From: Rhodovulum marinum
GTDB taxonomy: Bacteria; Pseudomonadota; Alphaproteobacteria; Rhodobacterales; Rhodobacteraceae
Length of the DNA stretch: 64,000 nt
Direction: 5' to 3'
Assembly: GCF_004343075.1 (NCBI RefSeq)
Contig: NZ_SLXP01000001.1
Location: forward strand, 1-64,000
Numbering within the stretch: position 1 is the first letter of the stretch; every line of letters begins with the position of its first letter. Under the pieces are notes generated by a model. The model did no database searches and was not told the DNA's origin. It saw only the letters and a program-made list of their open reading frames with translations. This document shows, one piece after another, positions 610 to 37,221 of the stretch. The translations under genes were made by a program, and so were the position numbers.

Positions 610-643
610 GGCGAATTTTGCCGCGATCCGAAATTCCACATCG

Positions 644-659: not shown

Positions 660-704
660 TTTGTGCGCGTTCATTGTGACGCGGGCGGGCCGTGCACGCC
701 GGAA

Positions 705-725
705 GCGTGCAAAAAGCGTGCACGG
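705..725. repeat. Left-end copy of prophage end motif (candidate integrase arm site)
   Basis: GCGTGCAAAAAGCGTGCACGG closely matches the sequence at 37065-37085, in the same orientation. A partial copy, CGTGCACGC, sits at 691-699. The copies lie about 120 bp and 60 bp inside attL and attR, where arm-type integrase or excisionase sites are expected. They match each other, but binding is inferred. Confidence 0.45.
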
Positions 726-762
726 CCCGCCGCGATGTTCGCGCGACGTTCCGGCCCGGCGA

Positions 763-1601: not shown

Positions 1602-1819
1602 GTCCGGGTGCTCCAGTAATTGAAGAGGCGGCGGAGAGCGTAGCTCCGCGCGAGAGAGGCGACGGTGAAGGCGGCCGTCGCGGCGAGGCTTTGGGCGGCC
1701 GTGATCCCGACGCCGAGCGCCGGGAGAACGGTCATATTCAGGGCGAAGGCGAGGGCAGAGCCCGCGACGATATTCACGAGGGCCTCGACGAGCGAGGCTC
1801 GGCGGGTCTGGCCCCTCAT
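1598..1819 (-). CDS. DUF7220-like small membrane protein
   Basis: 73 residues with two hydrophobic segments (about 11-33 and 36-56) and the C-terminal motif SLARSYALRRLFNYW. This matches the DUF7220 family of phage inner-membrane proteins as I recall it; their role is unknown. The ATG overlaps the stop of the metallophosphoesterase gene (ATGA), and its own stop overlaps the next start. Its place near holin and endolysin makes a lysis accessory role possible but unproven. Confidence 0.7.
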   Translation of the reverse strand: MRGQTRRASLVEALVNIVAGSALAFALNMTVLPALGVGITAAQSLAATAAFTVASLARSYALRRLFNYWSTRT

Positions 1820-3489: not shown

Positions 3490-3493
3490 GGGA

Positions 3494-4171: not shown

Positions 4172-4776
4172 TTGGCACACCTCGCCTTGTGCTCGGCCGC
4201 GGTCAGGTGAAACCGCGGCGAAATGAATTCCTCCGCGCGGACGATCCAGCCGCCCTTTCCGCCATCGCGGCGGCGCGCGTATTTGCGCGAGCTCGCCCGG
4301 AGATCGGCGAGCCGGTAATAGTAATTCCGCCGGGCGATCCCGTAGGCATCGGCGAGGAGCGCCGCGCCGACCTGGCGCACGGCGCGCGCAGCGGCGGCCG
4401 CGGTGTTCGGGCCGATCGCGCCGTCGATCGCCACGCGCTCGCCGAGCTCGACGAGGAGCCGTTGAAGGAGCTTCGCGGCATTGCCGCCGGCGTTCACGTT
4501 CATGTCGTAAACGGTCGGCTGGAGCGCCGCGGGCAGGAGGTCGATCCCTGCGCCTTGGAAATAGTGGCGCTCGAAGATTTCGGCCGCCTTCTCGGCCGAG
4601 AGGAGCTTGACGTCGGCGACGTCGATATCCCCGTCGCGATCGAGGTCGAGCCCGAGCCGGCGCATCGTCCCGATCGTGACGCCGAATTTCGTCGCGCCGC
4701 CCGGATCGTCGGGGTCATTCACGAAGCCGCCTTCGCGGGCGACGATCTCGGCCGTGATCTCGCGGACCGTTTGCAT
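4162..4776 (-). CDS. Endolysin, glycoside hydrolase 108 family N-acetylmuramidase
   Basis: 204 residues. The N-terminal motif REGGFVNDPDDPGG with catalytic-type Glu15, followed by ATKFGVT, is the GH108 muramidase signature. The C-terminal half, from about residue 110 (DGAIGPNTAAA), fits the peptidoglycan-binding domain that follows in this family. There is no signal peptide, so release depends on the downstream holin with which it overlaps. A Rho-independent terminator (4791-4815) stands just upstream, so expression needs readthrough or a local promoter. Confidence 0.9.
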   Translation of the reverse strand: MQTVREITAEIVAREGGFVNDPDDPGGATKFGVTIGTMRRLGLDLDRDGDIDVADVKLLSAEKAAEIFERHYFQGAGIDLLPAALQPTVYDMNVNAGGNAAKLLQRLLVELGERVAIDGAIGPNTAAAAARAVRQVGAALLADAYGIARRNYYYRLADLRASSRKYARRRDGGKGGWIVRAEEFISPRFHLTAAEHKARCAKWA

Positions 4777-4790
4777 TGCATCACCTCAAG

Positions 4791-4846
4791 AAAAAGCCCG
4801 GGCCGAAGCCCGGGCGGTGCACGAAGCGCCGCCGAGTCGGCGGCGC
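4791..4846 (-). terminator. Rho-independent terminator ahead of the endolysin gene
   Basis: On the minus strand a GCCCGGG-CTTCG-GCCCGGGC hairpin is followed directly by TTTTT (4815-4791). A second GC-rich hairpin (GCGCCGCC/GGCGGCGC, 4846-4826) precedes it, right after the spike-base stop. This separates tail from lysis transcription. Confidence 0.8.
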
Positions 4847-4856
4847 GGAGGGGCGA

Positions 4857-5117
4857 TCACCAGATCGAGACGATCCCGGCCGCCGTCGTCCCCGTCGCCC
4901 AGACACGGGCGACGCGGATGGGAAAGGCGACTCCCGCCGCGATGTAGACCGTCTCGGTCGTGCCCCCGACCGTCGTCGCCCTGACCTCGCCGCTCTGCGC
5001 GACGCACAAGGCGCGCGAGGCGGTCGCGAGGTCCGCCTCGTCGTCCGGGGTCACGGCCGCGAGAAAGGCGCCGGGGGACTCGAGTCCCGCGGCGTGCGAT
5101 TGGAATCGGTCAGACAT
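4857..5117 (-). CDS. Spike base protein, RCAP_Rcc01079 family
   Basis: 86 residues opening MSDRFQSHAAGLESPG, with ALCVAQSGEVRAT and the C-terminal PIRVARVWATGTTAAGI, a close match to the spike-base family first named from the Rhodobacter capsulatus gene transfer agent, where it anchors head spikes. AGGAGG lies 8 nt before the ATG. It is the last gene before the terminator preceding the lysis block. This supports kinship of the virion with RcGTA-type particles and suggests capsid or tail decoration for capsule binding. Confidence 0.85.
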   Translation of the reverse strand: MSDRFQSHAAGLESPGAFLAAVTPDDEADLATASRALCVAQSGEVRATTVGGTTETVYIAAGVAFPIRVARVWATGTTAAGIVSIW

Positions 5118-5170
5118 TGGGAAACCTCCTATGAAAAGGCTTGAGCGGGCGCAGAGCCCACCGCGGCGAT

Positions 5171-5485
5171 TTACTGCGCCTTCTGTTCAAGGCGCGCGAT
5201 CGAGTCGCGGATTGCTTGGATATTCGCGAGGAGTTGCGAATAACGCTCGTCGGCGCGGGCGGCCTCGATTTCGAGGGCGCGGACGCGCCCCTCGACGACG
5301 AGGCGCGCCGCGGCCGCCTCGTCGATCTCCTCCTCGACCGCGGCGACGTCCGAGGCCACGGCCGCGAGATCGGACGTCATGGCGACCCAAGAGCCGCCGA
5401 AGCCGACGAGGATCACGGCGACCTGGATCACGTTCCCGACCGATATCGTCCGCGTGAAAACGGGCTTCGGAGGAAGGTCAACCAT
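5171..5485 (-). CDS. Small membrane-anchored coiled-coil protein
   Basis: 104 residues: one N-terminal transmembrane segment (about residues 17-36, VIQVAVILVGFGGSWVAM), then a long heptad-like helix rich in A, E and R up to the C-terminus. The topology would place the coil outside the cytoplasm. It resembles phage accessory or spanin-like proteins in layout only; I cannot name a family. It is the one gene in this part of the late operon that ends in UAA, with 13 further open codons before a UAG. Confidence 0.6.
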   Translation of the reverse strand: MVDLPPKPVFTRTISVGNVIQVAVILVGFGGSWVAMTSDLAAVASDVAAVEEEIDEAAAARLVVEGRVRALEIEAARADERYSQLLANIQAIRDSIARLEQKAQ

Positions 5486-5512
5486 TCTCGCCCCCTTTCC
5501 TGATCCACCGCA

Positions 5513-6115
5513 TCACGATCCCGCCCCCTCCAGCCCGAGCGCCGGGCCGAGCCCGAGCGCGATCGCGGTCGCCCGGGCCTCCTCAGCCGCGGCAAGGAGC
5601 GTCGGCTCGTATTGGTGCGGATCTTCGACCGCCTCGATCTGCGCCGTCACCTTGCGCCGCAGCCCCGCCAGCGCCGCGGCGCCGGCCCGGAACGTTTCGG
5701 CCCGGGCAATGACTTTCGCCGCGAGCTCGTCGAGCGTCTCGCCCGTGATCGTCGCCTCGCCGGAAAGAAAGTCGAGATCGGCGGAGGACGCCGACCCGGC
5801 GAGATAGGCGCGCGCGGCGGCCTCCTTGATCGGCCACGAGAGCCGCTCCTCGGCCGGAACGGCGCGGACGAGGGGCGCCGCGAACTCCTCGGCCCAAGCC
5901 ACCATCGCGGCGAGGGCCTCGGCGGCGGTCGCGTATTTCGGCGGCGCCTCCGGCTTCGGAGGCTCGATATAGGGCGCGACCGGGCCGAGTTGCCCCGAGA
6001 GGGCGAGATCGTGCACCAGATCGCCGGGCTTCAAATAAACGTCCACGCCGGTCGCCGTGTTGCGAGCAAGGATTCCGCCATGCCGGTTCACGGCGCGAAG
6101 ATTTTCGAGGATCAT
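5513..6115 (-). CDS. Tail-fibre-associated protein
   Basis: 200 residues from an ATG that overlaps the upstream fibre stop (ATGA). The N-terminus (MILENLRAVNRHGGILA) and a Pro-rich linker near residue 70 precede a long Ala-rich helical region. Position directly after a fibre-like gene suggests a tail-fibre assembly or chaperone role, which is inference from context. A longer frame upstream exists but would overlap the fibre gene by 55 nt. Confidence 0.6.
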   Translation of the reverse strand: MILENLRAVNRHGGILARNTATGVDVYLKPGDLVHDLALSGQLGPVAPYIEPPKPEAPPKYATAAEALAAMVAWAEEFAAPLVRAVPAEERLSWPIKEAAARAYLAGSASSADLDFLSGEATITGETLDELAAKVIARAETFRAGAAALAGLRRKVTAQIEAVEDPHQYEPTLLAAAEEARATAIALGLGPALGLEGAGS

Positions 6116-6648
6116 TGAAAACTCCATTTGCCGGCGCCCACGGCGGGCGGAACGGGAAAAACCCACTCGCCACCCGTTGAAAGCTGCACATTTGAGAGGG
6201 AAGCGAACCGATCCGCACCCTGATTGTCGAGGCGGAACGCGACCCTTATCTCGCTGTTTGCAGAGATCGGGAGATCGACAGAGTGCGCCACCCCAGCCCC
6301 GGACCCCGAGAAGGTGCCCACGGTGACGTCATCAACATAAACCCGGGCGTAGGCCAAGCCGGAGTTCGATCCGATGACAAAACGCAAGCGCACCGAACCG
6401 GCCTGCAAAGACGTCCAGCGAAACCCATCAGAATAAATCTGACTCGGGCTGGTCATCACCCCAACCGAGAGGAAGCGCACCTCGTCCCCGGCCGTAATCT
6501 CAGGGAAAGCCCCAGGCATCAGCCGCGGGGCTCCTGGCGCACCGATCGCAATTGCTTCTGGGTTGCGAGCAAGCCGCGTAAAAAGCGACGAGGTGAGCGG
6601 AGAGCCCGCGTCGAGCTCCTCGTCGCCGATATCGTTCCAGTCTGGCAC
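6112..6648 (-). CDS. Tail fibre / receptor-binding-like protein
   Basis: 178 residues. The N-terminal module WNDIGDEELDAGSPLTSS, then LFTRLARNPEAIA and GAPGAPRL, recurs at the start of short alphaproteobacterial phage tail fibres and probably attaches to the tail tip. Residues 50-178 are beta-rich and carbohydrate-binding-like in composition (jelly-roll style alternation). Placement directly after the tail-tip gene supports the assignment. Host receptor is unknown. Confidence 0.65.
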   Translation of the reverse strand: MPDWNDIGDEELDAGSPLTSSLFTRLARNPEAIAIGAPGAPRLMPGAFPEITAGDEVRFLSVGVMTSPSQIYSDGFRWTSLQAGSVRLRFVIGSNSGLAYARVYVDDVTVGTFSGSGAGVAHSVDLPISANSEIRVAFRLDNQGADRFASLSNVQLSTGGEWVFPVPPAVGAGKWSFQ

Positions 6649-6662
6649 GCTTGGCCCTCCTG

Positions 6663-8405
6663 CTATCTGATCTTGAAGCCCTCGCTCCCGTCCGGGAGAA
6701 AGCCGTTATCGTCGGATATCCACGCGACCCCGAAGGGATCGCTCCCGTCGCCGACGTAATCGCCGAGGGAGTCCTCCGCGATCTCCGAGAGAGTCCCGGC
6801 GAGGGTCGCGTCCTCGGCCGTGTAGTAGACCCGGCGCTCCGAGGGGCGCGGGTCGCGCGAGGTCACGATCCAGAAACGCGACTCCGGCGCGCCGGTCGTG
6901 CCTTGGAGCCGATGGAAGAGGATTTCCACGATCTCGCCGACGCCGAGCCCGCCGTCCTTGTCGGAGACGGCGAAGGAAACCTCCCGCGACCCGAGACGGT
7001 ATCGCGAGAGAATTCGCGACGTCGTTTCCAGCGCCACCGCGCCGGAGTTGACGAACCGCGCGAAAATCTTTCGGATCGCCTTGTCGCCGAAAGCCTTTTC
7101 GTCCTCGATCGGAAGGTCGAGCGAGCCTTGAATCCGGCGATAATTGTCCTCGTCGTCGCGGCTCGCGGTCGGATCGCGCGGGTCGAAATAGACATAGACC
7201 CGCGAAACCCGCCGCTCCGGGAAATCCCGGATTCGCACGGTGCCGGCGACGAGGTGCTCGGATTCTGTCAGCCGGACCGGCCGCTCGACGATCGGCTTCA
7301 CGGCCGCGAAACGGACCTTTGCCGCCACCTCGTCCCACCACTGGAGCGATTGAGTCTGCTCCAGCACCTCGCCCACGAGATCGACGACGGGCGTCGGCTC
7401 GGTGACGAGCCCGGTCAGGGTGTAGGCGGTCAGGTATTGGCCGGCCTCGGCCGCCCAATCCGAGAACGGCAGATAGGCGGCCGGAATCGTCGTGAAGCCG
7501 TAAAGCGCGGCCAGCCCCTGATCGACCGTCTCGCCGGAGAAGCGGAAACACTCTTGGACCCGATCCTCCGCCGCGTGCTCGGCCGCTTCCGTTCCATCCG
7601 ACCCGCGGGCGGTGATCGTGAACTCAAGAAGTCCGCCCTCCGCCTCGGAGATCGCGGAATAGGTCATAACCTCGTCGTTGATCCGGATCGTCCCGGCGGC
7701 CGGGTAATCCCCGAGCACCGCGCCGGCGACCTGGATCGAGGCCGCGGCGGCCGAGATATCGGTCGCGAGCTCGCCCTCGGAGATCGGCGGGCATTGCGCC
7801 TTTTCGTCCGCGGCCTTCGAGAGGACGTCGCGGCATTTCATCGTGACGATCTCGTCGCTCGAAAAATCCACCGCGTCGCAGAGATAGACACGTTTCACCA
7901 TGTCGGCGAGCGCGTCCCCGGCGAAGCCCTCGAAGATCGAAACCACCATCCCGGCCTTGCCGAAGGTGTTCCGCGCAAGCCACTTGCTCCAGAACGTGCC
8001 TTGCGCGAGCGGATCGTAGGAGCGCGCCGAGCGATAGGGATCGACGAGCAAGTCGCTATGAGGCGCATCCCGGAAGGTGATCGTCGCGGCCGCCCGAATC
8101 CCAAGCGGGTTCACGCGGCGATCGGCGCCCGAGACGTTGATCCGCGCCGGCGAGGTGGAAGGCGGGCCGGCGAGGAATGGCAGGATCATGATCTCGTCTG
8201 CGGGGCGCCCCTGCCCCGGGATTCCGAAATAGAGATCGAGCGTCGCGCCGGGGGCGTAGTTTTCCCGGTCGCGGCACGTCGAATAGGTGTTGAAGCACGG
8301 CGCGCCGGTCGCCGCGCACGGCGCGAGGCCATGGGAAAGCGCGCATCGCGGCTGCTCGATCCGGACGATCACGATCGGCTCGGCGGAGAAAGGCGTCTCA
8401 GGCAT
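6663..8405 (-). CDS. Tail tip / hub protein with four-cysteine N-terminal motif
   Basis: 580 residues from ATG 8405. Cysteines at 21, 30, 37 and 44 near the N-terminus (RIEQPRCALSHG...) are reminiscent of the Fe-S-binding cysteine clusters in siphovirus tail-tip proteins such as lambda gpL and the BR0599/DUF2163 group. The rest is beta-rich, with SRVYVYFDPRDPTASRDD in the second half and an acidic C-terminus. It sits between the distal-tail-like gene and the fibre gene, where the hub is expected. Fe-S binding is inference. Confidence 0.7.
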   Translation of the reverse strand: MPETPFSAEPIVIVRIEQPRCALSHGLAPCAATGAPCFNTYSTCRDRENYAPGATLDLYFGIPGQGRPADEIMILPFLAGPPSTSPARINVSGADRRVNPLGIRAAATITFRDAPHSDLLVDPYRSARSYDPLAQGTFWSKWLARNTFGKAGMVVSIFEGFAGDALADMVKRVYLCDAVDFSSDEIVTMKCRDVLSKAADEKAQCPPISEGELATDISAAAASIQVAGAVLGDYPAAGTIRINDEVMTYSAISEAEGGLLEFTITARGSDGTEAAEHAAEDRVQECFRFSGETVDQGLAALYGFTTIPAAYLPFSDWAAEAGQYLTAYTLTGLVTEPTPVVDLVGEVLEQTQSLQWWDEVAAKVRFAAVKPIVERPVRLTESEHLVAGTVRIRDFPERRVSRVYVYFDPRDPTASRDDEDNYRRIQGSLDLPIEDEKAFGDKAIRKIFARFVNSGAVALETTSRILSRYRLGSREVSFAVSDKDGGLGVGEIVEILFHRLQGTTGAPESRFWIVTSRDPRPSERRVYYTAEDATLAGTLSEIAEDSLGDYVGDGSDPFGVAWISDDNGFLPDGSEGFKIR

Positions 8406-9235: not shown

Positions 9236-11053
9236 CTAGTTGACGGTCACGATCGCGCCCTCGCGCGAGAGCTCTTGGAGCTTTTCCGCAAGGGAAATCA
9301 CCGCCGAGCGCGGAAGCCATTCCGCCTCGCCGATGTTCAGGTTTACTTGCTGCGGCGCGGGCGCGGCTTCCGCCGCGGCGGGGGCGGCCGTCGCTCCACC
9401 GCCACCGCCACCGCCACCGGAGCCACTGGCGGAGGTCGAGGCGATCGAGGAGATAAGGGCGCCCGTTTTCGCGAGCGACGCCGCGGTGAAGGCCGCGGCC
9501 ATCGGCGGGCCGCCGATCTTCATACCCTTTTCCCATGCCGCGACGGCCGCCTCGTAGCCGTTCACGGTCGCCTCGGCTATCGCCGCGGCCTTGCCGATCT
9601 CGAAGAGCTTCTTATTCTCGCTCTGCATCAACGAGGAGAGATCGCCGAACATGCCGGCAAGCGCCTGCATCCGGGCTTGACGCTTCGCGGCCTCAAGCTC
9701 TGCGATCTTTTCGTTATGCTCCTTCTGGATTCTCTCTTCGAGCGCGTTCCACTCTTCCTCCTTGCCGACCTTCTCCTCGCGGAACTTGTTCAGCGCCTCT
9801 AGCTTCTCTTGATAGTCGAGCTCGATCAATTCGCGCTCGGAGGCGAGGCTCTCTTCGAGAGCCCGGAGGTCCTCTTCGGTCGGGCCCGATCTGCCGCCGC
9901 CGCCCCCGATATCGTCGAAACCGAGAGTCGCCGGGTCGCGATTGTTGAGCCCGATCGGCGCGGTCGGAATCTCGACCTCGGGGACGAGGTGATTCCCGGG
10001 CTTGATCCCGGGCGAATCCCCCTCGCCGTCCAAGCCGTAGAGGTCGCGGAGCGCCTTGTCCGTCGCCGCATCGCCCGTTCCCTGACCGCCCCCGAGAACC
10101 GGGTCGCGGGTAACGCCCCCTTCGGGATCGACGCCAAGATCGCCGCCGATCGAGCGAGCCGCCCCCTCGGCGGCGGCGGCGGCGGGATCGCGGAGCGCCT
10201 TCATCGCCACGGCAGCGGAGTCGAAGGCTTTGGCGACCCCGGCCCCGAAGCGGATCAGCCCTTCGAGCGCCGGAATCCCGTAATCCTTCACGAACTGCGC
10301 GAGGAGGACGATCTCGTCCTCAAGCCCGATAAGCGCCGTCGTGAGCTCGGTCCGGATTTCCCCTTCGAGCTCGTCGAGCTTGTTCCGGAGGCGCTCGGCG
10401 CCGCGGAGCGTTTCGCCCGAGAGGATTCGGCCGGATCGCTCCGCCTCGTCGCCGAGCTCGTTCATCACGCGGCCCCCATCCCGCAGGAGCGGGAGGAGTG
10501 CCGTCGCGTCGGAGGCCATGGCCTCCATGTAGAAGGTGAACTCCGCTTGCGTGACGTTCGCCTTCTCCAGCGAAGAAACGTAAAGCTGGAGCGCGTCGGG
10601 GCCGGACAGCCGCGCGAATTGCTCGGCGGTCACGCCGACCTGGGGCGCGATCTTCTCGAAGAAATCAGCCATGGGCCCGCCGCCGGTCGCGATAAAATCG
10701 CCGACGCGATCTTGCACATCCTTGAGAATGTCGGACAGCTTGTCGTGTTCGATCCCGACCGTCCGCGCGGCGATCGCCCATTTCTGGAACTCGGTCGGAG
10801 TCGTGCCGGCGACGCGCGAGAGGTTCTCGATCTCGACGGCCGCCTCCGCGGCGCGACGGGCGAGCCCCGTCGTCGCCGTGGCGCCGATCGTGAGGGCGGC
10901 GGCCATCGCCGAGCCGATCTTCGCCATGCGGCGGCCGATCCGCGCGCTCTTGGTCGCGAAGGTGTCGAGATCGCGCCCCCCGGCGCGCAGGGCGCGCGCC
11001 AGCGGCGAGACGTCGCCGCCGACCTCGACGAGGATATCGGCTTCCGCTTTCAT
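9236..11053 (-). CDS. Tape measure protein
   Basis: 605 residues. The N-terminus (DVSPLARALRAGGRDLD) and the region up to about 210 match phage tail tape measures of the lambda-like type. A hydrophobic helix lies near 50-65, a low-complexity linker near 290-390, and a strongly charged coiled coil with KLEALNKFREEKVGKEEEW near 430-480. The C-terminus is Gly/Ala-rich. The ATG immediately follows the stop of the frameshift extension (TAGATG). Tape measure length sets tail length; by the usual scaling this suggests a tail of the order of 90 nm. Confidence 0.9.
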   Translation of the reverse strand: MKAEADILVEVGGDVSPLARALRAGGRDLDTFATKSARIGRRMAKIGSAMAAALTIGATATTGLARRAAEAAVEIENLSRVAGTTPTEFQKWAIAARTVGIEHDKLSDILKDVQDRVGDFIATGGGPMADFFEKIAPQVGVTAEQFARLSGPDALQLYVSSLEKANVTQAEFTFYMEAMASDATALLPLLRDGGRVMNELGDEAERSGRILSGETLRGAERLRNKLDELEGEIRTELTTALIGLEDEIVLLAQFVKDYGIPALEGLIRFGAGVAKAFDSAAVAMKALRDPAAAAAEGAARSIGGDLGVDPEGGVTRDPVLGGGQGTGDAATDKALRDLYGLDGEGDSPGIKPGNHLVPEVEIPTAPIGLNNRDPATLGFDDIGGGGGRSGPTEEDLRALEESLASERELIELDYQEKLEALNKFREEKVGKEEEWNALEERIQKEHNEKIAELEAAKRQARMQALAGMFGDLSSLMQSENKKLFEIGKAAAIAEATVNGYEAAVAAWEKGMKIGGPPMAAAFTAASLAKTGALISSIASTSASGSGGGGGGGGATAAPAAAEAAPAPQQVNLNIGEAEWLPRSAVISLAEKLQELSREGAIVTVN

Positions 11054-11242
11054 CTATCCGGCCTCCTCGACCGCTTTCATAAGGCGTTGATAAAGCCGCT
11101 CCTTCTCTTCGAGGGGCGACTCCTTCTCCGGGGGAAGGTGCGCGTCCATCAGCCACCACACCTCGCCGGGCGGGAGGCGCCAGAACTCCGCGCGGGAAAC
11201 CCAGCCGCGGCCGACGAGGACCGAATAGAGGAGGCGGACTAT
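11054..11242 (-). CDS. -1 frame extension of the tail assembly chaperone (gpGT-like)
   Basis: A 62-codon open frame in the -1 frame relative to the upstream chaperone. It ends in TAG directly before the tape measure ATG. Its product contains SRAEFWRLPPGEVWWLMDAH and a charged end (EKERLYQRLMKA), matching the second protein of the tail-chaperone pair found between tail tube and tape measure in RcGTA-like phages. It has no ATG before residue 33, so production by -1 ribosomal frameshifting near the upstream stop is likely. The G/A-rich end of the upstream gene (GAG GGG GCG GAA TAG) is the candidate slip region. Confidence 0.6.
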   Translation of the reverse strand: MVRLLYSVLVGRGWVSRAEFWRLPPGEVWWLMDAHLPPEKESPLEEKERLYQRLMKAVEEAG

Positions 11243-12195: not shown

Positions 12196-12606
12196 CTAGA
12201 GCGGCTCGATCAGGAGCCGATATTCGCAAAGCCCGTGCCGAAGGCGGTCGGGATCGCGGTCGATCGTCGATCGCTCGCGCCGGATCATCACGAGATTGTG
12301 GCCCGGGACCGCGAAGGCGGCCCGGTGCAGGAGCTCGAAAATCCGCCTCTGGATCGCGCGCGCCTCCGCGTGCGACCCGGAGGCCGAGAAGGTATGAACC
12401 CGGACGATCACGTCGAAGAGGTCCGAGCCCTTCGTCCCGACGTCGCGGACGTCCATTTCCCCGATCGCCACGCGCGGGAAGGCCGCGGCGGCGTCCCCGT
12501 CCTCGCCCTGCGCCGGGGCGTCGCAGACCGTGACGCCGAGGCCGGCGAGGGCCGCGTCGCCGGAGAGGCGCTCGAAAAGCGCCGTCTGGAGCGCGAATTC
12601 GTCCAT
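12196..12606 (-). CDS. Tail completion protein, DUF3168 family
   Basis: 136 residues starting MDEFALQTALFERLSGD, with PRVAIGEMDVRDVGTKG and a C-terminal LCEYRLLIEPL. This is the DUF3168 (RcGTA gp8-like) family, which caps the tail tube and joins it to the head. It ends just before the tail tube leader, the standard position. Confidence 0.85.
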   Translation of the reverse strand: MDEFALQTALFERLSGDAALAGLGVTVCDAPAQGEDGDAAAAFPRVAIGEMDVRDVGTKGSDLFDVIVRVHTFSASGSHAEARAIQRRIFELLHRAAFAVPGHNLVMIRRERSTIDRDPDRLRHGLCEYRLLIEPL

Positions 12607-13029
12607 CTACCGCCCCCTCTTCTGCGCCCGGCGGATCGCCGCTTGGAACTTCTTCACGAATTGCTCGCGGAGGATCACCGGGAGCTTGGCCTCGATCTCG
12701 CGGACCGAGGGCAGAATGAAGGGCCGCGCCGAGAGCTTCGAGGTCCCGCGCTCCAGAAAGCGCCAATAGAAGCCGTCCGCCTTCGCGCCGCGGCCGCGCT
12801 CTGCCACGACGTCGGACCGGATGCGGCCGAACTCCATCCGCCGGCGCTTCGTCTTGATCGAGCGGGCGAGGTCGCCCTCGTCTCGGGGCGCGTTCCTCTT
12901 CACGAGGTCCCGCACGCTCCCGGCGACGCCGTGCACGGTCGCGCGGGAAATGTTGACCGCGTGCCGCGGCGCAACCTCTTCGAGGAGCCGCTTGACGTCC
13001 TCTGTTCCGCGCACCTCTACCCGCATCAT
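12607..13029 (-). CDS. HK97 gp10-family head-tail joining protein
   Basis: 140 residues from the first of two ATGs at 13029, overlapping the upstream stop. Features are EVRGTEDVKRLLEEV at the start, RNAPRDEGDLARSIKTKR near residue 50, and FYWRFLERGTSKLSARPF near 95, all hallmarks of the HK97 gp10 family. These proteins sit at the neck or tail terminator. The strongly basic C-terminus (RRAQKRGR) is normal for the family. Confidence 0.85.
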   Translation of the reverse strand: MMRVEVRGTEDVKRLLEEVAPRHAVNISRATVHGVAGSVRDLVKRNAPRDEGDLARSIKTKRRRMEFGRIRSDVVAERGRGAKADGFYWRFLERGTSKLSARPFILPSVREIEAKLPVILREQFVKKFQAAIRRAQKRGR

Positions 13030-13358
13030 GCCGAAAGCTCCCCCGCCGTGGCGGTGATTGTCTGATAGAGCGCGCGGGCGACCGGGCGACCGTGGCCCTC
13101 GATATTCCACAGGAAGCCGCCCCACCTGATCCGGTCGCTCGCGCGAAGATCGTCGCGGGCGCGGATCGTGAAGCGCGCCCTCTGCCGGGCTTGGACCCCG
13201 GCGCCGAGAGCGCCCTCCTCGCCGGCGAGGAGCGTCACCTTCGCCCACGGCGAGGGATCGGCCGGGATCGGCGCCCACGCGACCACCTCGCCGCCGGCGC
13301 CGTCCGGGGTGCGGACCTGGCGCTCGATCTCGATCTTCTGGTCGAGCCTTCCGATCAT
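13026..13358 (-). CDS. Head closure / head-tail adaptor protein
   Basis: 110 residues opening MIGRLDQKIEIER, with DGAGGEVVAW, WAKVTLLAGEEG and RASDRIRWGGFLWNIEG. This is the SPP1 gp16-like head-closure (phage head-tail adaptor) family. It is coupled to both neighbours by 4-bp overlaps. It closes the portal after packaging and docks the tail. Confidence 0.85.
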   Translation of the reverse strand: MIGRLDQKIEIERQVRTPDGAGGEVVAWAPIPADPSPWAKVTLLAGEEGALGAGVQARQRARFTIRARDDLRASDRIRWGGFLWNIEGHGRPVARALYQTITATAGELSA

Positions 13359-13930
13359 CCGAAAACCCTCACGCGGTTGAGGTTCACGAGCCGCTCGACG
13401 CCGAGCGGGATTTGCGTCGCGACCGTTCCGATCACCACCTCGTCGCGCACCTCGAAGCGGTGCGCCGCGAGGAGCTTGACGGCGTGCCGCAAGGTCGCCG
13501 GGACCGCCGCGGCCGTATCCCCGAAGCCCGCGCGATAGGTGATCGAGATCGCGTCGGGCCGATCGCCGAGACCGCTCGGCCAATCGCCGCGGACGAAGGC
13601 GCGCTCGCCGTCAGAGATCAGCGCGAAATCCCCGATATCGCCGGCAACGGTCGAGCCGTCCGCCTTGACGAAGGCGATCGCCTCCAAAGATTGCGCGGGG
13701 CCGATTTCAAGCTCGACGTCGCGGGCGGCGGCGGGGCCTCGCGTGAGCGTGTAGCTCGCCGAGATCATGGCGCGGCCGAGGAGCCCGGTCCCGTCGATCT
13801 CGTCGATCGCGGCGGCGAGACAGCCGTCGAGGAGATCGTCCTCGGCCGTCGAGGTGATCCGCAAGTGAGCCTTGAGCTCTTCCCGGGTGACGGGGAGCGC
13901 GGCGGGCGGTGTCGTCTGGCGCGTTGGCAT
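13355..13930 (-). CDS. Head-tail connector (gp6/gp15-like)
   Basis: 191 residues. LPVTREELKAHLRITSTAEDD and the middle AISITYRAGFGDTAAAVPATLRHAV are signatures of the phage connector family (HK97 gp6, RcGTA gp6), an all-helical ring under the portal. The upstream 99-codon gene ends in UAA exactly in this frame, 8 codons before this ATG, so stop readthrough would fuse the two. Confidence 0.88.
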   Translation of the reverse strand: MPTRQTTPPAALPVTREELKAHLRITSTAEDDLLDGCLAAAIDEIDGTGLLGRAMISASYTLTRGPAAARDVELEIGPAQSLEAIAFVKADGSTVAGDIGDFALISDGERAFVRGDWPSGLGDRPDAISITYRAGFGDTAAAVPATLRHAVKLLAAHRFEVRDEVVIGTVATQIPLGVERLVNLNRVRVFG

Positions 13931-13954: not shown

Positions 13955-14254
13955 TTACTCCGCCGCGGGATCGGGGGCGGCGGCCTGGGCGAGGGCCGCC
14001 TTCCGGGCGGCGCGCCGGGCGGCAATGGCAGCGCGCGCGGCCGTCCTGAACTCTTGCGCCTCCTCCGCAACACGGGCGGCGGCGATCTCCTTCGCACGCG
14101 CGAGGGTGAGGCCCTTCGTCAGCTTCACGACGTAGCCCGCGCGCTCCAGATCGGCGGCGATCGCGGCATCGGAGAGCGTGACCTCGTGACCTTCCGTCAG
14201 ATCGACGGCCGGGCCCGAGGCGCTGACCGTCGCGAGATATCTCGTCGGCTTCAT
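13955..14254 (-). CDS. Small head-region protein ending in in-frame UAA
   Basis: 99 residues; MKPTRYLATVSASGPAV, then VTLSDAAIAADLERAGYVV, and a long Ala/Arg helix. Position between capsid and connector is where HK97-like phages encode small head proteins, but I do not recognise the family. The UAA stop (13957-13955) is followed in the same frame by CCC GAA GCA CCG GAG CCC GGA CCC and then the connector ATG. Confidence 0.65.
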   Translation of the reverse strand: MKPTRYLATVSASGPAVDLTEGHEVTLSDAAIAADLERAGYVVKLTKGLTLARAKEIAAARVAEEAQEFRTAARAAIAARRAARKAALAQAAAPDPAAE

Positions 14255-22974: not shown

Positions 22975-23324
22975 GGCGTTCTCCTAAGGTCAGTTTGATC
23001 CGACCGAAGGGAGACCAATCCCGGGTGGCCGGACGGAACAGGATTGGCCTTACCGCCCTTAGGAAGCGGCGCCCCCGAAGGAGCTCCTGCCCCGCCCGAC
23101 CATAAAAAAGCCGCACCGAAACGGCGCGACTTTGCGAGCGCCTAAGTCACTGCGGGAGGCCAATCCCGGCGCCGGATGCGTCCGGCACTACGAAACGATA
23201 GGCCCCACGACTGAATAAGTCAACACAGGGCGGGCACCCGGCCGCTTCGGGCGTGACAAGGCCGCGCGCGTTTGGCAGACAGGCCCGGCCGCGCTGGCCG
23301 CGACTACAGACGACAGGAGAGAGA
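22975..23324. other. Intergenic region between Rha block and lipoprotein gene
   Basis: About 350 bp without a gene. It holds the minus-strand terminator at 23104-23130, the ribosome site of the 91-residue protein, and the leader of the rightward lipoprotein gene (AGGAG at 23314). I see no convincing -35/-10 pair on either strand. Confidence 0.5.
23104..23130 (-). terminator. Rho-independent terminator of the early operon
   Basis: On the minus strand GTCGCGCC-GTTTC-GGTGCGGC (8-bp stem with two G-U pairs) is followed by TTTTTT. It would end transcripts arriving from the replication genes and insulate the Rha genes. Confidence 0.8.
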
Positions 23325-30669: not shown

Positions 30670-31022
30670 TCGCGGCGATCCCCGATCCGACCGGCCTCCT
30701 CGACGAGCAGCTCTTGACCGTCGAGGAGGCCGTCGCGTGGCTGGCCGAGCGCGGGATCGAGACAAGCCGCTTCGGGCTCTACCGGCTCCGGGCCGAGGGA
30801 TCGCTCCCGACGATCCGCACCCGCGGCCGGAAGCGGATCAAGTTTCGCCCGAGCGACCTCGCCCGGGCCTTCGTTGAAGGGGAAGAGAAATGGCCCTCAA
30901 GCTCTTCCGGCGGAAGCCGGGCGGAAACTGGATCATCCGCGGCAAGCTCGCGGGAAAAAGCGTTTATGAAAGCTCTGGAACGAGTGAGCGCCGCCTCGCC
31001 GAGGCGAAGAGGGTCCGCCTAG
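30666..31022 (+). CDS. Excisionase-like small HTH protein
   Basis: 118 residues. LLTVEEAVAWLAERGIETS followed by FGLYRLRAEGSLPTIRTR and RIKFRPSDLARAF is a MerR/HTH_17-type winged helix as in phage excisionases. The last 45 residues are Ser/Arg-rich and overlap the integrase start by 133 nt, so they may be dispensable. Location directly before integrase supports a recombination directionality factor. Confidence 0.7.
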   Translation: MIAAIPDPTGLLDEQLLTVEEAVAWLAERGIETSRFGLYRLRAEGSLPTIRTRGRKRIKFRPSDLARAFVEGEEKWPSSSSGGSRAETGSSAASSREKAFMKALERVSAASPRRRGSA

Positions 31023-31951
31023 AGCGCGAGATTCTGGAGCGGGAGTGCCTCGGCCGCGAGGCGACGATCACCTTCGCCGAGGCCGCGCTCGCCTATGTAG
31101 AGGCCGGCGGGAGCCCGCGCTTCCTCGATCGGATTCTCCGCTATGCCGGGCCCGATACGCTCCTCCGCGACGTCAATAACGCTTGGGTCCGCGAGGCCGC
31201 CGAGGCGCTCTATCCGGATTGCGCCCCCGCCACGATCGACCGGCAACTCGTGACCCCCGTCTCGGCCGTCGTCAACATGGCGGCCGAGGACGATCTCTGT
31301 CCGCCGCGACGCTTCCGCAAGCGCGCGAAGGACCGCGCCCGGGTGCGCTGGATCACGCCGGAGGAGGCCGAGGCGCTCCTCGCGGCCGTGCGCGAGCTCC
31401 AGCCCCACACCCTCCGCCCGGTCGCGCTCATGCTGGGCGGCGGGCTCCGCTCCGGCGAGGCGCTCCGCGTCGCCCGGGCGGATATCCGCGAGGCGACGGG
31501 CGAAGTCTGGATTCCGGAGACGAAGAACGGCGAGCCCCGCATGATCCGGCTTCCCCGCCGGGCGCTCGACCTCCTCCGCGCCGAGCCGCTCCCCGAGGAG
31601 GGGCCGGTCTGCCGGACGCCGAAGGGGGAGCCCTACGTCCTGCGCGAGAATGGCGGCGGCCAGATCGCCGCCGCCTTCGCGAAGGTCGTCGCGGCGGCGG
31701 ACCTCGATCCCCGCGAGGTGACGCCCCACGTCCTGCGCCATACCTGGGCGACCTGGTATCACGCCGCGACGCGCGATTTCGGCGCCTTGATGGACCTCGG
31801 GGGCTGGAAAACGCCCGCCATGGCGAACCGCTACCGCAAGCTCGCGCCCGAGGACCTCGCGGACCGATTGCTCGCGAGGGGATGGGATTTCACGCGGGCC
31901 GATTTCCGGGCGCCGCGGCTCGTCGAGACGATTATAGCAAGAGGCCGCTAG
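30890..31951 (+). CDS. int: Tyrosine-type integrase
   Basis: 353 residues. Catalytic set: R187 (GGGLRSGEALR), K212 region (PETKNGEP), H280-x2-R283 (TPHVLRHTWATW), W306 in place of the second His (GGWKT), and nucleophile Y315 (MANRYRKL). The N-terminal 60 residues are a basic arm-binding type domain and about 60-130 a SAM-like core-binding domain. GGGGAAG lies upstream of the ATG. It should recombine the att core in the anticodon loop of tRNA-Ser. Confidence 0.95.
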   Translation: MALKLFRRKPGGNWIIRGKLAGKSVYESSGTSERRLAEAKRVRLEREILERECLGREATITFAEAALAYVEAGGSPRFLDRILRYAGPDTLLRDVNNAWVREAAEALYPDCAPATIDRQLVTPVSAVVNMAAEDDLCPPRRFRKRAKDRARVRWITPEEAEALLAAVRELQPHTLRPVALMLGGGLRSGEALRVARADIREATGEVWIPETKNGEPRMIRLPRRALDLLRAEPLPEEGPVCRTPKGEPYVLRENGGGQIAAAFAKVVAAADLDPREVTPHVLRHTWATWYHAATRDFGALMDLGGWKTPAMANRYRKLAPEDLADRLLARGWDFTRADFRAPRLVETIIARGR

Positions 31952-32185
31952 ACTTCCATTTCGCTAACGGTGTGGATGAAGCTGAGAGCGTCACAATCGC
32001 TTTTCAATCGCCCTGCAATCGATTGTAGGGAAGAGCCTGACCTACGCCTCTTAGACTAGCAAGCGTAGCAATGAGTCATCTGCGGCAATCTCAGGTGGAC
32101 CGCAAGTCAAGCGCAAATATAATGATTCGTGAGTGGTGGACTAAAGCCCTGGGAAGGTAGTGGCTTCGGTCGCTAGTGTCTGCCC

Positions 32186-32213
32186 TCAAAAAGAGAAGGG
32201 GCGTTCCCGCCCC
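32186..32213 (-). terminator. Terminator of the tRNA/winged-helix cassette
   Basis: Minus strand GGGGCG-GGAA-CGCCCC followed by TTCTCTTTTT, 9 bp after the 46-residue gene. It closes the leftward cassette that starts with the tRNA. The gap 31952-32185 toward the integrase holds no gene I recognise and is less GC-rich. Confidence 0.8.
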
Positions 32214-32221
32214 TCCTCAGC

Positions 32222-32362
32222 TCAGATGGTGGTGTTGGTCTCTGGCCCAACTTCGATAGCGAAGGCCTTCTTGCCATACCACTTGGCCCAAATCCTTCGA
32301 CCATCCTTGGTCGTGATGTAGGGCCGAAAGATGACGGTCTTTCCGTCACTCGTAGTCGCCAT
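32222..32362 (-). CDS. 46-residue protein
   Basis: A short gene with a strong AAGGAG 9 nt before the ATG and a terminator just after the TGA. Product: MATTSDGKTVIFRPY, then TTKDGRRIWAKWYGKKAF and an acidic end. The basic-aromatic core suggests nucleic-acid or protein binding; I cannot name a family. Third element of the tRNA cassette. Confidence 0.65.
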   Translation of the reverse strand: MATTSDGKTVIFRPYITTKDGRRIWAKWYGKKAFAIEVGPETNTTI

Positions 32363-32393
32363 AGTTGGTTCTCCTTCTATGGACGTGATCCGG

Positions 32394-32430
32394 CCCTAAC
32401 GCTCTTCCCTCCAAAGTCGAAGCGTTAGGG
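32394..32430 (-). repeat. 10-bp inverted repeat between the two cassette genes
   Basis: CCCTAACGCT and AGCGTTAGGG, perfect arms with a 17-nt loop, between the winged-helix stop and the 46-residue gene. No T-run follows, so it is more likely an mRNA stabiliser or attenuator than a terminator. Confidence 0.6.
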
Positions 32431-32447
32431 TCGGCTCCTCTGAGAAC

Positions 32448-32849
32448 TTACCTCATGGTAGCCCCCGGGAGTCTAAGAGGGTGGACTTCGCCACCCCTGT
32501 TGCTGTGTTCCTTGAGGCGATAGACCTCTCCGTCGTATGTGACTGTGCCTTCATTCTTGAGACGGCTAAGAAGCGAAGAGACTGACCCACGTTCAAGTTC
32601 GACGCCATCTTTTGCGGCCATATCAACCGCTATGGCTGCGTTAAGGCCTCCCGCTCCAACGGCAGTAAGAAGGTCAAGCACCGTTCGTTTCACGTTGGCC
32701 CGCTTGGCCCTCTTCTTGGGTGCGGGCTCCCCACGCTCTTCGCGCATCATGTCCAACACGAGCTCTTCTTGGATGCGGAGCTTTTCCATCTCAGACCGAA
32801 TGCGCGAGAGCCTGTCCTCCAAGGCCTTCATCGCATTGCTCTTTCCCAT
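32448..32849 (-). CDS. Winged-helix protein directly behind the tRNA, ends in UAA
   Basis: 133 residues from ATG 32849; AAGGAG begins 4 nt after the tRNA CCA. A coiled coil (MGKSNAMKALEDRLSRIRSE to about 40), a basic linker (APKKRAKRANVKR), and a winged helix (LDLLTAVGAGGLNAAIAV, then RGSVSSLLSRLKNEGTVTYD). The stop is UAA; reading through it leaves 33 open codons until a UGA. Likely a DNA-binding regulator. Less GC-rich codon use than the phage core. Confidence 0.75.
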   Translation of the reverse strand: MGKSNAMKALEDRLSRIRSEMEKLRIQEELVLDMMREERGEPAPKKRAKRANVKRTVLDLLTAVGAGGLNAAIAVDMAAKDGVELERGSVSSLLSRLKNEGTVTYDGEVYRLKEHSNRGGEVHPLRLPGATMR

Positions 32850-32864
32850 ATGTTTCTCCTTAAG

Positions 32865-32952
32865 TGGTGGTCCCGGCGGGGTTCGAACCCGCACACCCTG
32901 GGAAGGTCGCGGTTTTAAAGACCGCTGCGTCTGCCAATTCCGCCACGGGACC
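32865..32952 (-). tRNA. Leu-type tRNA with anticodon UUA (putative ochre suppressor)
   Basis: 88 nt, class II. Acceptor GGTCCCG/CGGGACC perfect, D-arm GCGG...CAGACGC, anticodon stem GCGGT/ACCGC with loop CTTTAAA, variable arm with an ACC/GGT stem, T-arm GCGGG-TTCGAAC-CCCGC, discriminator A73, encoded CCA. Placing U33 in the 7-nt loop gives anticodon UUA, which pairs with UAA. Normal tRNA-Leu(UAA) would read CTTAAAA here, so this is one substitution (A35 to U) away. Bacterial LeuRS uses A73 and the tRNA body rather than the anticodon, so charging with leucine is expected. A36-A37-A38 keeps the MiaA signature. Confidence 0.85.
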
Positions 32953-32986
32953 TACTTGCTCTTGTAGCTCACGAGATCACCCTCGC

Positions 32987-32994
32987 AATATATA
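32987..32994 (-). promoter_or_regulatory. -10 region of the tRNA cassette
   Basis: TATATATT on the minus strand, 35 nt before the tRNA 5' end, in an AT-rich stretch. No good -35 at 16-18 bp; TTGACT lies 22 bp upstream (33022-33017). Confidence 0.4.
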
Positions 32995-33118
32995 GCTTGG
33001 CGCGCAACGGCCCGAGAGTCAACGCAATGCGATGCAAATTCTTTGACGCAATTTTTTTGCTGCGTTATCAATGTTTTACACATACGCGCGCATAAGACGC
33101 GACGATTATACCACTTGA

Positions 33119-33304
33119 ATTTCGCACAATGCAAGGTGCACGGGGCGAATCAGGAACGCGGAGAAACCCCAACTCCACCGCTTCAAAGAAGCCGCTCGTC
33201 AGCTACAAAAGGACAACGACGAAGCGCGGTTCAGCGCTAAGCTGCGGCAGCCGGCAGAGCAGAAGCCGAATGATACTGACAGCCTAGGCAAAGGAGACGA
33301 GTGA
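33119..33304 (+). pseudogene. Small phage frame lacking a start codon
   Basis: The frame encodes HRFKEAARQLQKDNDEARFS from about 33176 and ends TGA overlapping the next ATG (TGATG), as in coupled genes. Its C-terminal part resembles a family of roughly 45-residue phage proteins (FxEAARELxxDEDEAxF). No ATG, GTG or TTG follows the upstream stop at 33116-33118 in this frame; only ATT/ATC could start it. Either a non-standard start or a decayed 5' end. Confidence 0.4.
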
Positions 33305-33513
33305 TGGCAGAAGAAATTGCAAACCTGTGTCGCCAGTATGTGGCTGATAACGCGGCCGCTCTAGATGCCCGGCCCGAAGAAGAGGCGGTAAGGGCAATGG
33401 TCAACATGCTCCACCGCCACGCCGCAGGCGAGGGCTGGGAAGCTTTAGATTATCACCTCAACGTTGAAGAGGTCGCGCGAGATGGTCTGAAGCGACACCG
33501 CAAGCGACGTTAG
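33304..33513 (+). CDS. Small acidic protein
   Basis: 69 residues from ATG 33304 (GGAG 7 nt upstream; the GTG just before is too close to it). MAEEIANLCRQYVADNA, helical throughout, basic tail KRHRKRR. Coupled to the frame before it. Not recognised. One of few rightward genes in the right arm. Confidence 0.6.
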   Translation: MAEEIANLCRQYVADNAAALDARPEEEAVRAMVNMLHRHAAGEGWEALDYHLNVEEVARDGLKRHRKRR

Positions 33514-33563
33514 ACGGGTTTGAAAAAGATCCAATTGCCCTTCTTTGCGTTGCGCCAACGCGC

Positions 33564-33812
33564 TTAGACCGCGCCGCCGGCCGCCACGCGCGCCTTGTGC
33601 TGTGCGAGGCTCTTCTCGAATGTCGTCATGTAGGAGACGCCCTCCTCCCATCCCCGCTTGAACTCCAGCCATTCCGCGCACCGCTCGCCGCGCTCGGTGC
33701 ACGCGATCATGAGCTCCTCGCCGACCTGGTATTCGAGCGAAAGCCGATCGACCGACCCCGGCGGCGCGCAGCCGGCGAGGAGGAGCGGGAGGAGAGCGAG
33801 ACGTCGGATCAT
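33564..33812 (-). CDS. Prophage lipoprotein near the right end
   Basis: 82 residues from ATG 33812 with AAAGGGGAAA upstream. Signal peptide MIRRLALLPLLLAGC with lipobox LAGC (Cys15); mature part helical and acidic (ERCAEWLEFKRGWEEGV). It ends in UAA. Similar small lipoproteins occur near phage ends and lysis genes (outer-membrane spanin-like), but no spanin partner is adjacent. Role unknown. Confidence 0.65.
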   Translation of the reverse strand: MIRRLALLPLLLAGCAPPGSVDRLSLEYQVGEELMIACTERGERCAEWLEFKRGWEEGVSYMTTFEKSLAQHKARVAAGGAV

Positions 33813-33867
33813 GATTTCCCCTTTCGGTTGAAGCCCGGGCCCGGAGTGCCACGGGCCGGGGCGGCGA

Positions 33868-34938
33868 TCAAGGCGCGCCGAAAAGGTCGAGTTGCTCGGC
33901 CGGCCGGTCAGCCTCGATCGGCGGAATCCAGAGGAACGGGCCGGAGGCCAAGGGCAGCGCCGAGAGAGCGCCACGCATACGCCGCCGCCAGAGGGCAAAC
34001 TCCGTTGCCGAGCAATCGCAAAGCGCGTGCCCGGGCGGCCAGCCCATGAGCCGCTCGACGAAGAGCGGATTCAGCCGCGGCCGCGCCCGCATCCGCCAGA
34101 GCCGGCGGGCCACCTTGCGCCCATGGGCGGAGATCATCCAGCGCAAGAGCGGGCGCAAGGAAGGGATCGCGGGCGAGAAGCTCGCGCCAGAGATCGAGCG
34201 CGGCCGGGCCGGGGGGAAAAGCCATGTGTCGCGGCGTTCGGAAGTTGATCCATGTGCCCGCGACCTGGCCGAGCGACATGCTCGGCCGAGTTCTCCCCCT
34301 TCGCGTCCCGCGCCGCAGGAGTCGGCCAGAGACGCCGAGCCGGGAACGTCGAGGCCAAGCCCTCCAGCGTCGCCCGCTCCTTGCCCTTCCGGCCCTTGTC
34401 GCGCGTATAGCTCCCGCGCGCGACTCTCGCTGTAGGCCACGACGAACACGCGGGCCCGCTCGTGCGACGCGCCGACCTCTTCCGCGCTGAATAGACCCGC
34501 CGCGACCTCGTAGCCCATGCCTCGAAGCTCTCGGAGCACGAGCTCCAGCCCGAGCGAGACGTGCCCCTCGACGTTTTCGAGGAGGACGAAGGCGGGATCG
34601 AGCTCGCCGATAACGCGGGCGACATGGGGCCAGAGGTGGCGCTCGTCGTTCGGCCCTTGTCGCTTGCCCGACGTTGAAAAGGGCTGGCAGGGATAGCCGG
34701 CGAGGACGGTATCGAAGGCGCCGCGGAAGGGTCGCGCGTCGAAGGTTTCGAGATCGTCCCAGATCGGCGCCTCGTCGAGATATCCGGCGCGCATCCCGGC
34801 GACGAGGACGTCGCGGGCGGCGGGCTCGATCTCGACGAAGCACCGGGTCGCGAATCCGGGCTCGGCGAGACCGAGGCCCAAATCCAAGCCTCCGCCGCCG
34901 GCGCAGAGGGAGAGGCCATTCCGGGGACGTAGCACCAC
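33868..34938 (-). CDS. DNA (cytosine-5) methyltransferase
   Basis: 356 residues from GTG 34938 with GAGG 7 nt upstream. Motif I LSLCAGGGGLDLGL, motif IV GYPCQPFSTSGKRQG with the catalytic Cys, motif VI ENVEGH, motif VIII RARVFVVA, and C-terminal LFVERLMGWPPGH (motif IX/X area). The middle (200-290) is the target recognition region. The C-terminus PAEQLDLFGAP contains QLDLF, the consensus beta-clamp-binding pentapeptide. No cognate restriction gene nearby: phage self-modification is likely. Confidence 0.92.
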   Translation of the reverse strand: MVLRPRNGLSLCAGGGGLDLGLGLAEPGFATRCFVEIEPAARDVLVAGMRAGYLDEAPIWDDLETFDARPFRGAFDTVLAGYPCQPFSTSGKRQGPNDERHLWPHVARVIGELDPAFVLLENVEGHVSLGLELVLRELRGMGYEVAAGLFSAEEVGASHERARVFVVAYSESRARELYARQGPEGQGAGDAGGLGLDVPGSASLADSCGAGREGGELGRACRSARSRAHGSTSERRDTWLFPPARPRSISGASFSPAIPSLRPLLRWMISAHGRKVARRLWRMRARPRLNPLFVERLMGWPPGHALCDCSATEFALWRRRMRGALSALPLASGPFLWIPPIEADRPAEQLDLFGAP

Positions 34939-37146: not shown

Positions 37147-37195
37147 TTAGCAGGGGAGCGCCTTCGACCACTCGGCCACGTCTCCGCCGACGTGT
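37147..37195. repeat. attR core, displaced 5' half of tRNA-Ser
   Basis: Second copy of the 49-bp repeat. It holds tRNA-Ser nucleotides 1-39 and 10 bp upstream; the 3' half is missing, so this fragment cannot make a tRNA. Confidence 0.92.
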
Positions 37196-37221
37196 GTATT
37201 TGGGCGGGCAGGTGAAAACAA
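37193..37221 (-). promoter_or_regulatory. Stranded host promoter of tRNA-Ser
   Basis: TTGTTT (37221-37216), 17 bp, TACACA (37198-37193), reading into the truncated tRNA copy at attR. In a cured strain it would serve the intact tRNA. Transcripts now run into the right end of the prophage. Confidence 0.5.

Follow-up and report, generated by a model that had tools for sequence, protein, structure and literature searches.

The tRNA with a leucine body and the anticodon UUA, located in a prophage of Rhodovulum marinum, belongs to a cassette arranged in the following order: the tRNA, a gene designated here as gene A, a cargo slot, and a downstream element which, as a convergent RNA, is complementary to the tRNA. 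The cassette is present both in phages and in transposons, and the pairing of the element with the tRNA, revealed by sequence comparison, is well supported. We consider the chances about even that this is a mobile RNA–RNA toxin–antitoxin-like cassette, in which a mistranslating Leu tRNA would be restrained by an antisense RNA. The window is the whole stretch of DNA that was analysed (64,000 nucleotides); its features are collected in Table 1, and relatives are cited by locus (L) and genome (G) numbers.

The original prediction, in which the downstream element was absent, described a class II tRNA of a prophage with A73, an encoded CCA and paired stems, the positions 34–36 in the loop CTTTAAA being UUA, and all of this is borne out by the present analysis. 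ARAGORN, which had been suggested as a check, reports tRNA-Stop(tta) at exactly 32865–32952 of the minus strand, and the Rfam family RF00005 matches positions 32868–32952 with 57.2 bits (gathering threshold 29). In the minus-strand reading, the acceptor stem is GGTCCCG/CGGGACC, followed by A73 and the encoded CCA, and the anticodon stem GCGGT/ACCGC closes a 7-nt loop at 32920–32914. The host tRNA-Leu(TAA) (L053) has the loop CTTAAAA, exactly as had been supposed for an ordinary tRNA-Leu(UAA). U33 is not placed one base off, since the D-stem, A26 and the stem register agree with those of the host’s own Leu tRNAs. An energy-only fold of the bare 88-mer gave no cloverleaf, and the case for a tRNA therefore rests on the two tRNA models and on the relatives.

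A sequencing error is unlikely because the CTTTAAA loop recurs in three other genomes among the 394 of the family, ARAGORN finding tRNA-Stop(tta) in each, and because the stems vary yet stay paired: the anticodon stem of L331 (GCCGT/ACGGA) represents a compensated change, and the acceptor stems of other UUA relatives differ with pairing retained. On this recurrence, together with the ARAGORN result and the host Leu register, we reject both an error and a misplaced U33. Among the 41 tRNA matches of the genome, five host Leu tRNAs (TAA, CAA, TAG, CAG, and GAG) are located elsewhere, so the UUA tRNA is an extra copy; that it is the only Leu(UAA) tRNA of the host is ruled out by the separate tRNA-Leu(TAA). 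A tRNA remnant of the prophage end is ruled out as well, as the ends lie in a tRNA-Ser, 32 kb and 4 kb away. An intact Leu-type tRNA with the anticodon UUA, as required of a natural ochre suppressor, is thus at hand; given this body, this anticodon and the prophage location, the tRNA is expected to read UAA as Leu, and probably UAG too.

The prophage is bounded by a direct repeat (52 of 53 nt, 98%) which spans the 5′ part of tRNA-Ser(GCT) and encloses about 36.6 kb, with genes for terminase, portal, tape measure, endolysin, primase and integrase. The UUA tRNA lies just past the integrase, and the GC content of 32001–34000 is 58% vs. 64–73% in the other 2-kb intervals. The same prophage has a C4 antisense RNA (23021–23107, RF01695, 65.2 bits). 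At 33868–34938 there is a C-5 cytosine methylase-like ORF, possibly shortened, whose PF00145 match covers only residues 9–174; DNA related to it is found in several members of the genus. A genome of the same genus (G013:C1:1667465-1706046) has two matches to the attachment site separated by about 38.5 kb, which would fit another prophage at the same tRNA-Ser. The 95-nt sequence of the contig start (positions 1–95) is repeated in seven other contigs of the genome, at or near several contig ends; it is probably a mobile element whose copies interrupted the assembly.

Table 1. Features of the prophage and the cassette, by position in the window.
Feature	Position	Strand	Evidence and remarks
Left prophage attachment repeat, in tRNA-Ser(GCT)	535–587		Direct repeat
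Prophage tyrosine integrase, adjoins the cassette	30890–31951	plus	PF00589; phrog_1
Promoter-like TGGACC-16-TATAAT	32096–32123	plus	1 found vs. 0.7 expected; score 9.1, attained by 0/300 shuffles
Predicted antisense RNA: closing stem and two hairpins, one with a UUCG loop	32131–32187	plus	Complementary to the tRNA in three separate segments; strand inferred from structure
9-nt complement (one G-U) of the tRNA 3′ end CCACCACTT	32131–32139	plus	Duplex computation
12-nt complement of the tRNA variable arm (ACCTTCCCAGGG)	32147–32158	plus	Sequence comparison
9-nt complement (one G-U) of the tRNA D-arm GGCAGACGC	32176–32184	plus	Duplex computation
Terminator-like hairpin 3′ of gene B	32193–32218	minus	1 found vs. 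a mean of 2.0 in shuffles, weak alone
Gene B, 46 aa, fills the cargo slot	32222–32362	minus	ORF; homologues in L341, L342, L343, and L382 (same contig as L356)
Gene A, 133 aa	32448–32849	minus	ORF; homologues in 12 independent loci; AlphaFold2
Leu-body UUA-anticodon tRNA; proposed effector/toxin RNA	32865–32952	minus	Class II, A73, encoded CCA; ARAGORN, RF00005, relatives
Right prophage attachment repeat	37147–37199		Direct repeat

The ATG of gene A was chosen after an AAGGAG site adjoining the 3′ end of the tRNA. Its AlphaFold2 model (mean pLDDT 78.2) consists of a long N-terminal helix (residues 3–39; coiled coil) and a winged helix. Foldseek returned no match for it at E 0.001 or better, giving only winged-helix resemblances, including a Zalpha domain at E 0.035, and gene A has neither a Pfam match above the cut-off nor a PHROG match. 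By default, this winged-helix protein is taken as the probable regulator. Gene B, which has no Pfam match, occupies the cargo slot in the window, L341, L342, L343, and L356. The slot holds a second off-code tRNA with an Arg-like body and a GCU (Ser) anticodon in L318 and L364, an Arg-like tRNA with ACC (Gly), read by eye, in L348, and a RhuM-like gene, named by eye, in L359; nothing was recognised in the slots of L357 and L358. Hairpins similar to the terminator-like one are found in the relatives in the corresponding place.

The Leu-body UUA tRNA pattern was detected in 4 of the 394 family genomes (the R. marinum genome itself, G144, G214, and G330) and in several viral contigs; a looser first pattern had given at least 240 loci, with four tRNAs among the matches listed. 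ARAGORN assigned tRNA-Stop(tta) in L318, L319, L326, L327, L330, L331, L333, L128, L150, L183, and L197, the last being a viral contig of low GC content (548–7541) with an array of 26 tRNAs including one UUA tRNA. A gene A homologue is located downstream of the tRNA on the same strand in the window, L318, L319, L326, L330, L331, and L333. When gene A was used as the query, the search of 387 family genomes yielded the same four genomes as the UUA tRNA; viral sequences added L356, L357, L358, and L359, and 385 genomes of the class added L364 together with distant matches. Fifteen further genomes of the genus, with only 18 candidates scored in each, did not show the cassette, and no additional locus was found in the family of G699 (14 genomes). 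In the phage and plasmid collections, blastn did not find the UUA tRNA region and tblastn with one member as the query did not find gene A. In a draw of 398 genomes of the phylum, gene A had no match outside the class, the sole match being the R. marinum genome.

The following analysis is based on 12 independent loci: the window, L341 (=L330), L342 (=L331), L343 (=L333), L318, L348 (=L319), L349 (=L326), L356, L357, L358, L359, and L364. L349 is not included in the counts of the downstream element, its contig stopping 437 nt after the tRNA start. Left out altogether were L183/L347/L355 (the window’s own prophage, 100%), L365–L367, L369, and L370 (distant gene A without an ARAGORN tRNA), L345, L346, L350, and L197 (UUA tRNA, gene A not found), and L368 (distant gene A, different layout). 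In L368, two tandem Leu-body tRNAs with the anticodon UGC (Ala) follow the distant gene A homologue (1501–2237), and there is no complementary element.

A Leu-type class II tRNA is present in all 12 loci, and in none of them does it carry a leucine anticodon. The anticodon is UUA in seven loci, UGG (Pro) in L356 and L358, UCC (Gly) in L357 and L359, and ACC (Gly) in L364. Since the bodies are of the Leu type throughout and five of the anticodons do not correspond to a stop, what the loci share is an anticodon that does not fit the body, and not the reading of stops.

Passenger genes are known from transposons of the IS1595 family. Among the 11 loci with enough downstream sequence, six are linked to IS1595 transposases and five reside in phages. 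Transposase genes of the IS1595 type, recognised by the Pfam domains DDE_Tnp_IS1595 and Zn_ribbon_IS1595, accompany L318, L341 (fragment), L342, L343, L348, and L364 (partial). In L342, L343, and L348, terminal inverted repeats and 8-bp target duplications (TAAGGTTA, AAGGGTTA, and CATTTTCC, respectively) frame the cassette. The likeness to this family extends to the transposase domains and to these termini; the window copy differs in having neither an IS1595 transposase nor terminal inverted repeats. The window, L356, L358, and L359 (contigs L382, L371, and L392) are surrounded by phage genes whose terminases belong to at least three PHROG families, L357 (L372) adjoins an integrase, and the contig of L349 contains relatives of the window’s head genes.

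The downstream element repeats parts of the tRNA in the order in which they stand there: the D-arm (in several loci), the variable arm, and the 3′ end/trailer, with a short hairpin in place of the anticodon arm and the T-arm missing. The locus’s own variable arm is repeated downstream over 11–15 nt in all 11 loci with enough sequence. In cross comparisons a length of 11 nt was reached in 2 of 110 cases, each time between L343 and L356, which have a variable arm in common, and none of 100,000 permutations attained the observed variable-arm sum. Among 26 ordinary Leu/Ser tRNAs, some with less than 500 nt of flank, no such repeat occurs. For a second control set, viral contigs were scanned for Leu-body tRNAs with USS anticodons, giving 25 stretches and 15 ARAGORN tRNAs. 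The variable-arm repeat was found in 4/4 of the off-code phage Leu tRNAs having gene A (L371, L372, L382, and L392, which are the contigs of L358, L357, L356, and L359) and in 0/11 of those lacking it; among the latter, five are near-identical, two are identical, and in L373 the downstream sequence is limited to about 170 nt. These 11 tRNAs of phages (L373, L374, L376, L378, L380, L381, L384, L385, L389, L393, and L395) combine a Leu body with Ala, Pro or Gly anticodons and have neither gene A nor the element. Therefore, off-code Leu tRNAs are commoner in phages than the cassette, being a wider phenomenon, and the element belongs to the cassette. In L345, L346, and L350, which have the UUA tRNA without gene A, the variable-arm repeat was not found.

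What is expected of an RNA–RNA toxin–antitoxin pair, a partner complementary to the tRNA, is found at the sequence level in 11 of 11 loci, and the element quite probably encodes an antisense RNA to the tRNA. In 10 of the 11 elements, whose bounds were set by hand, the fold is more stable in the antisense orientation (sum −206.0 vs. −176.6 kcal/mol in sense), the exception being L364, which folds better as sense. A closing stem with two hairpins is predicted in six of the antisense folds and a UUCG loop in five. The stem TAGTGGC-TTCG-GTCGCTA of the window pairs fully only as antisense, because its G-U pairs become A-C in sense. The fold energies themselves are ordinary in comparison with shuffles (z from −1.98 to +1.56), and consensus folding on an automatic MAFFT alignment of seven elements recovered only 3 pairs. 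The promoter-like site of the window ends 7 nt ahead of the start of the antisense structure (32131); outside the window and L318 such promoters are weak, their summed score being attained by 7 of 300 shuffles. The plus-strand orientation and the existence of the antisense RNA are accordingly best described as supported but not proved by these data.

For the window, the predicted hybrid reaches −81.7 kcal/mol vs. −21.0 and −38.0 for the separate RNAs, with segments of 9, 12, and 9 pairs. The whole-length duplex is not always the best with the own tRNA (in the window, −78.1 with its own vs. −83.1 with that of L356). Across 40 distinct host tRNAs, the longest stretch in common with the element is 9 nt, vs. 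12 nt for the target. The variable arm, the part in which Leu tRNAs differ most, would thus give the specificity.

We suggest that the leucine-body tRNA with a non-leucine anticodon (UUA; elsewhere UGG, UCC, or ACC) is the stable partner of the module. Leucine charging is expected because LeuRS acts independently of the anticodon, as stated in PMC11415595, and the charged tRNA would therefore insert leucine where a stop, proline or glycine codon stands. That it may be toxic is in line with the toxicity to E. coli reported for the mistranslating tRNA-ProX tRNAs (PMC10365949). The second partner would be the short antisense RNA expressed from the opposite strand downstream, which may pair with the variable arm, the D-arm and the 3′ end/trailer, leaving the anticodon arm free. 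This pairing should block folding, maturation or charging of the tRNA, and the variable-arm specificity would spare the host Leu tRNAs. Upon loss of the cassette or shutdown of its transcription, the labile antisense RNA would be gone and the stable tRNA would remain, which corresponds to the logic of addiction or abortive infection proposed here by analogy with type I/VIII toxin–antitoxin pairs; gene A would act as a regulator and the slot after it would accommodate cargo. More tentatively, and with the balance tipping slightly against it, one can suggest a new mobile addiction/abortive-infection class in Alphaproteobacteria, in which a codon-rewriting tRNA (stop, Pro or Gly read as Leu; perhaps Ser or Gly as Arg by the cargo tRNAs) serves as the poison and an antisense RNA recognising the variable arm as the antidote, the whole shuttling between temperate phages and IS1595 transposons. 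Against the module stand the five distant gene A homologues without an adjoining ARAGORN tRNA, as well as L368 with its UGC tRNAs and no element of this kind.

Among the other readings, the one that survives best, although we regard it as rather doubtful, is a controlled mistranslation that helps the element or the host (through stress tolerance, protein diversity, or a decoy for anticodon nucleases), the antisense RNA being an on/off switch and not an antidote. It would agree with the second off-code tRNA present in some cassettes (L318 and L364 with GCU, L348 with ACC by eye) and with the carbenicillin resistance that E. coli gained from two tRNA-ProX tRNAs despite their toxicity, as outlined in a commentary (PMC10365949). 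However, travel in small transposons and unrelated phages suits a selfish element at least equally, and no linked synthetase was seen, unlike the case of tRNA-ProX.

A plain phage ochre suppressor, by which UAA (and UAG) in prophage or host genes would be read as leucine, is improbable in spite of its UUA anticodon. TAA ends only 3 of the 46 predicted prophage genes and 0 of the 24 flanking ones (by our own gene caller, which missed gene A); gene A also ends in TAA. A 99-aa gene (13955–14254, minus strand) ends in TAA, and the head-tail adaptor gene (13355–13930) lies in frame 8 codons on, so that the UUA tRNA could in principle fuse the two products, which speaks for a suppressor. Two gene pairs of the tail region (12196–13029 and 9236–11161) have TAG-ATG junctions in the same frame, UAG being a possible wobble target of the UUA anticodon. 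The prophage genes are open under table 11, with a single TAA junction, that of two neighbouring head genes; genes interrupted by in-frame reassigned stops, as in a recoded phage, were not found. Moreover, in 5 of the 12 loci the anticodon of the same cassette is one for Pro (UGG) or Gly (UCC, ACC), and reading of stops is therefore not what unites them; among the relatives, the cassette stands next to IS1595 transposases about as often as in phages, and suppression would leave the complementary element unexplained. Reading of phage stops as the general purpose of the cassette is rejected on account of the TAA scarcity and of these anticodons: from the ochre suppressor of the original prediction we retain the Leu-type body, the UUA anticodon and the prophage location, and abandon UAA reading in phage or host genes as the purpose.

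It seems just as improbable that the downstream repeat is a DNA-level feature, either a recombination- or attachment-like repeat or an operator of gene A, rather than an RNA gene. Parts of the tRNA are indeed directly repeated on either side of gene A and the cargo, and the predicted winged-helix fold of gene A is typical of DNA binding, but only three pieces are repeated, a hairpin replaces the anticodon arm, the stems contain G-U pairs only in the antisense orientation, and the repeated variable arm varies by locus, which would be odd for an operator. A sense-strand tRNA mimic competing with the tRNA for the gene A protein or another binder is highly improbable, because the sense identity with tRNA parts and the better sense fold of L364 are outweighed by the position of the element beyond the terminator-like hairpin on the sense strand, by the antisense preference of the other ten elements, and by the opposite direction of the window’s promoter-like site.

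If the toxin–antitoxin-like reading is true, the cassette represents toxin–antitoxin logic with the genetic code as the weapon, a wrongly charged tRNA being silenced by a dedicated antisense RNA, and it would account for off-code tRNAs in mobile DNA, which annotation labels by the anticodon alone. If only the part concerning regulation is true, this would still be an unusual RNA control of a tRNA gene.

In type I and type VIII toxin–antitoxin systems, an RNA effector is opposed by a small RNA. To our knowledge, no antisense RNA targeting a tRNA and travelling with that tRNA has been described; none was found in the open-licence literature, subscription journals being mostly outside its scope, nor did this literature yield an IS1595 passenger consisting of an off-code tRNA and a complementary element. 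Stop-recoding phages with suppressor tRNAs, such as those of code 15 (PMC9523058 and PMC10607447), share with the window a phage-borne tRNA for a stop codon; the window differs in showing no sign of recoded genes and in that UAA, not UAG, is addressed, and there are copies of the cassette that read no stops.

The mistranslating tRNA-ProX tRNAs of Streptomyces/Kitasatospora, occurring with ProRSx, are alike in combining the body of one amino acid with the anticodon of another and in having several anticodons per backbone; they are reported in the commentary (PMC10365949) to be toxic to E. coli, as is proposed for the cassette tRNA. In contrast, our tRNA has a Leu, not a Pro, body, neither a tRNA-Pro backbone nor a linked ProRS-like gene being found, and no synthetase was seen linked to the cassette, the genes adjoining the window tRNA being A and B. 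The cassette is carried by prophages and IS1595-linked elements, and its tRNA is accompanied by a winged-helix protein and by an RNA element complementary to that tRNA.

In CreTA (PMC8501985), a tRNA is sequestered by the short ORF of the small RNA CreT, and Cas proteins are guided by CreA. CreTA and the type I/VIII pairs resemble the cassette in that an RNA effector acting on translation or tRNA is opposed by a small RNA, which suits mobile or addictive behaviour. Unlike CreTA as presented in that source, the proposed effector here is the tRNA itself and its partner is a direct antisense RNA to the tRNA. In its function the cassette would be a type VIII-like pair; as to its composition, we know of no earlier tRNA with an antisense partner of its own.
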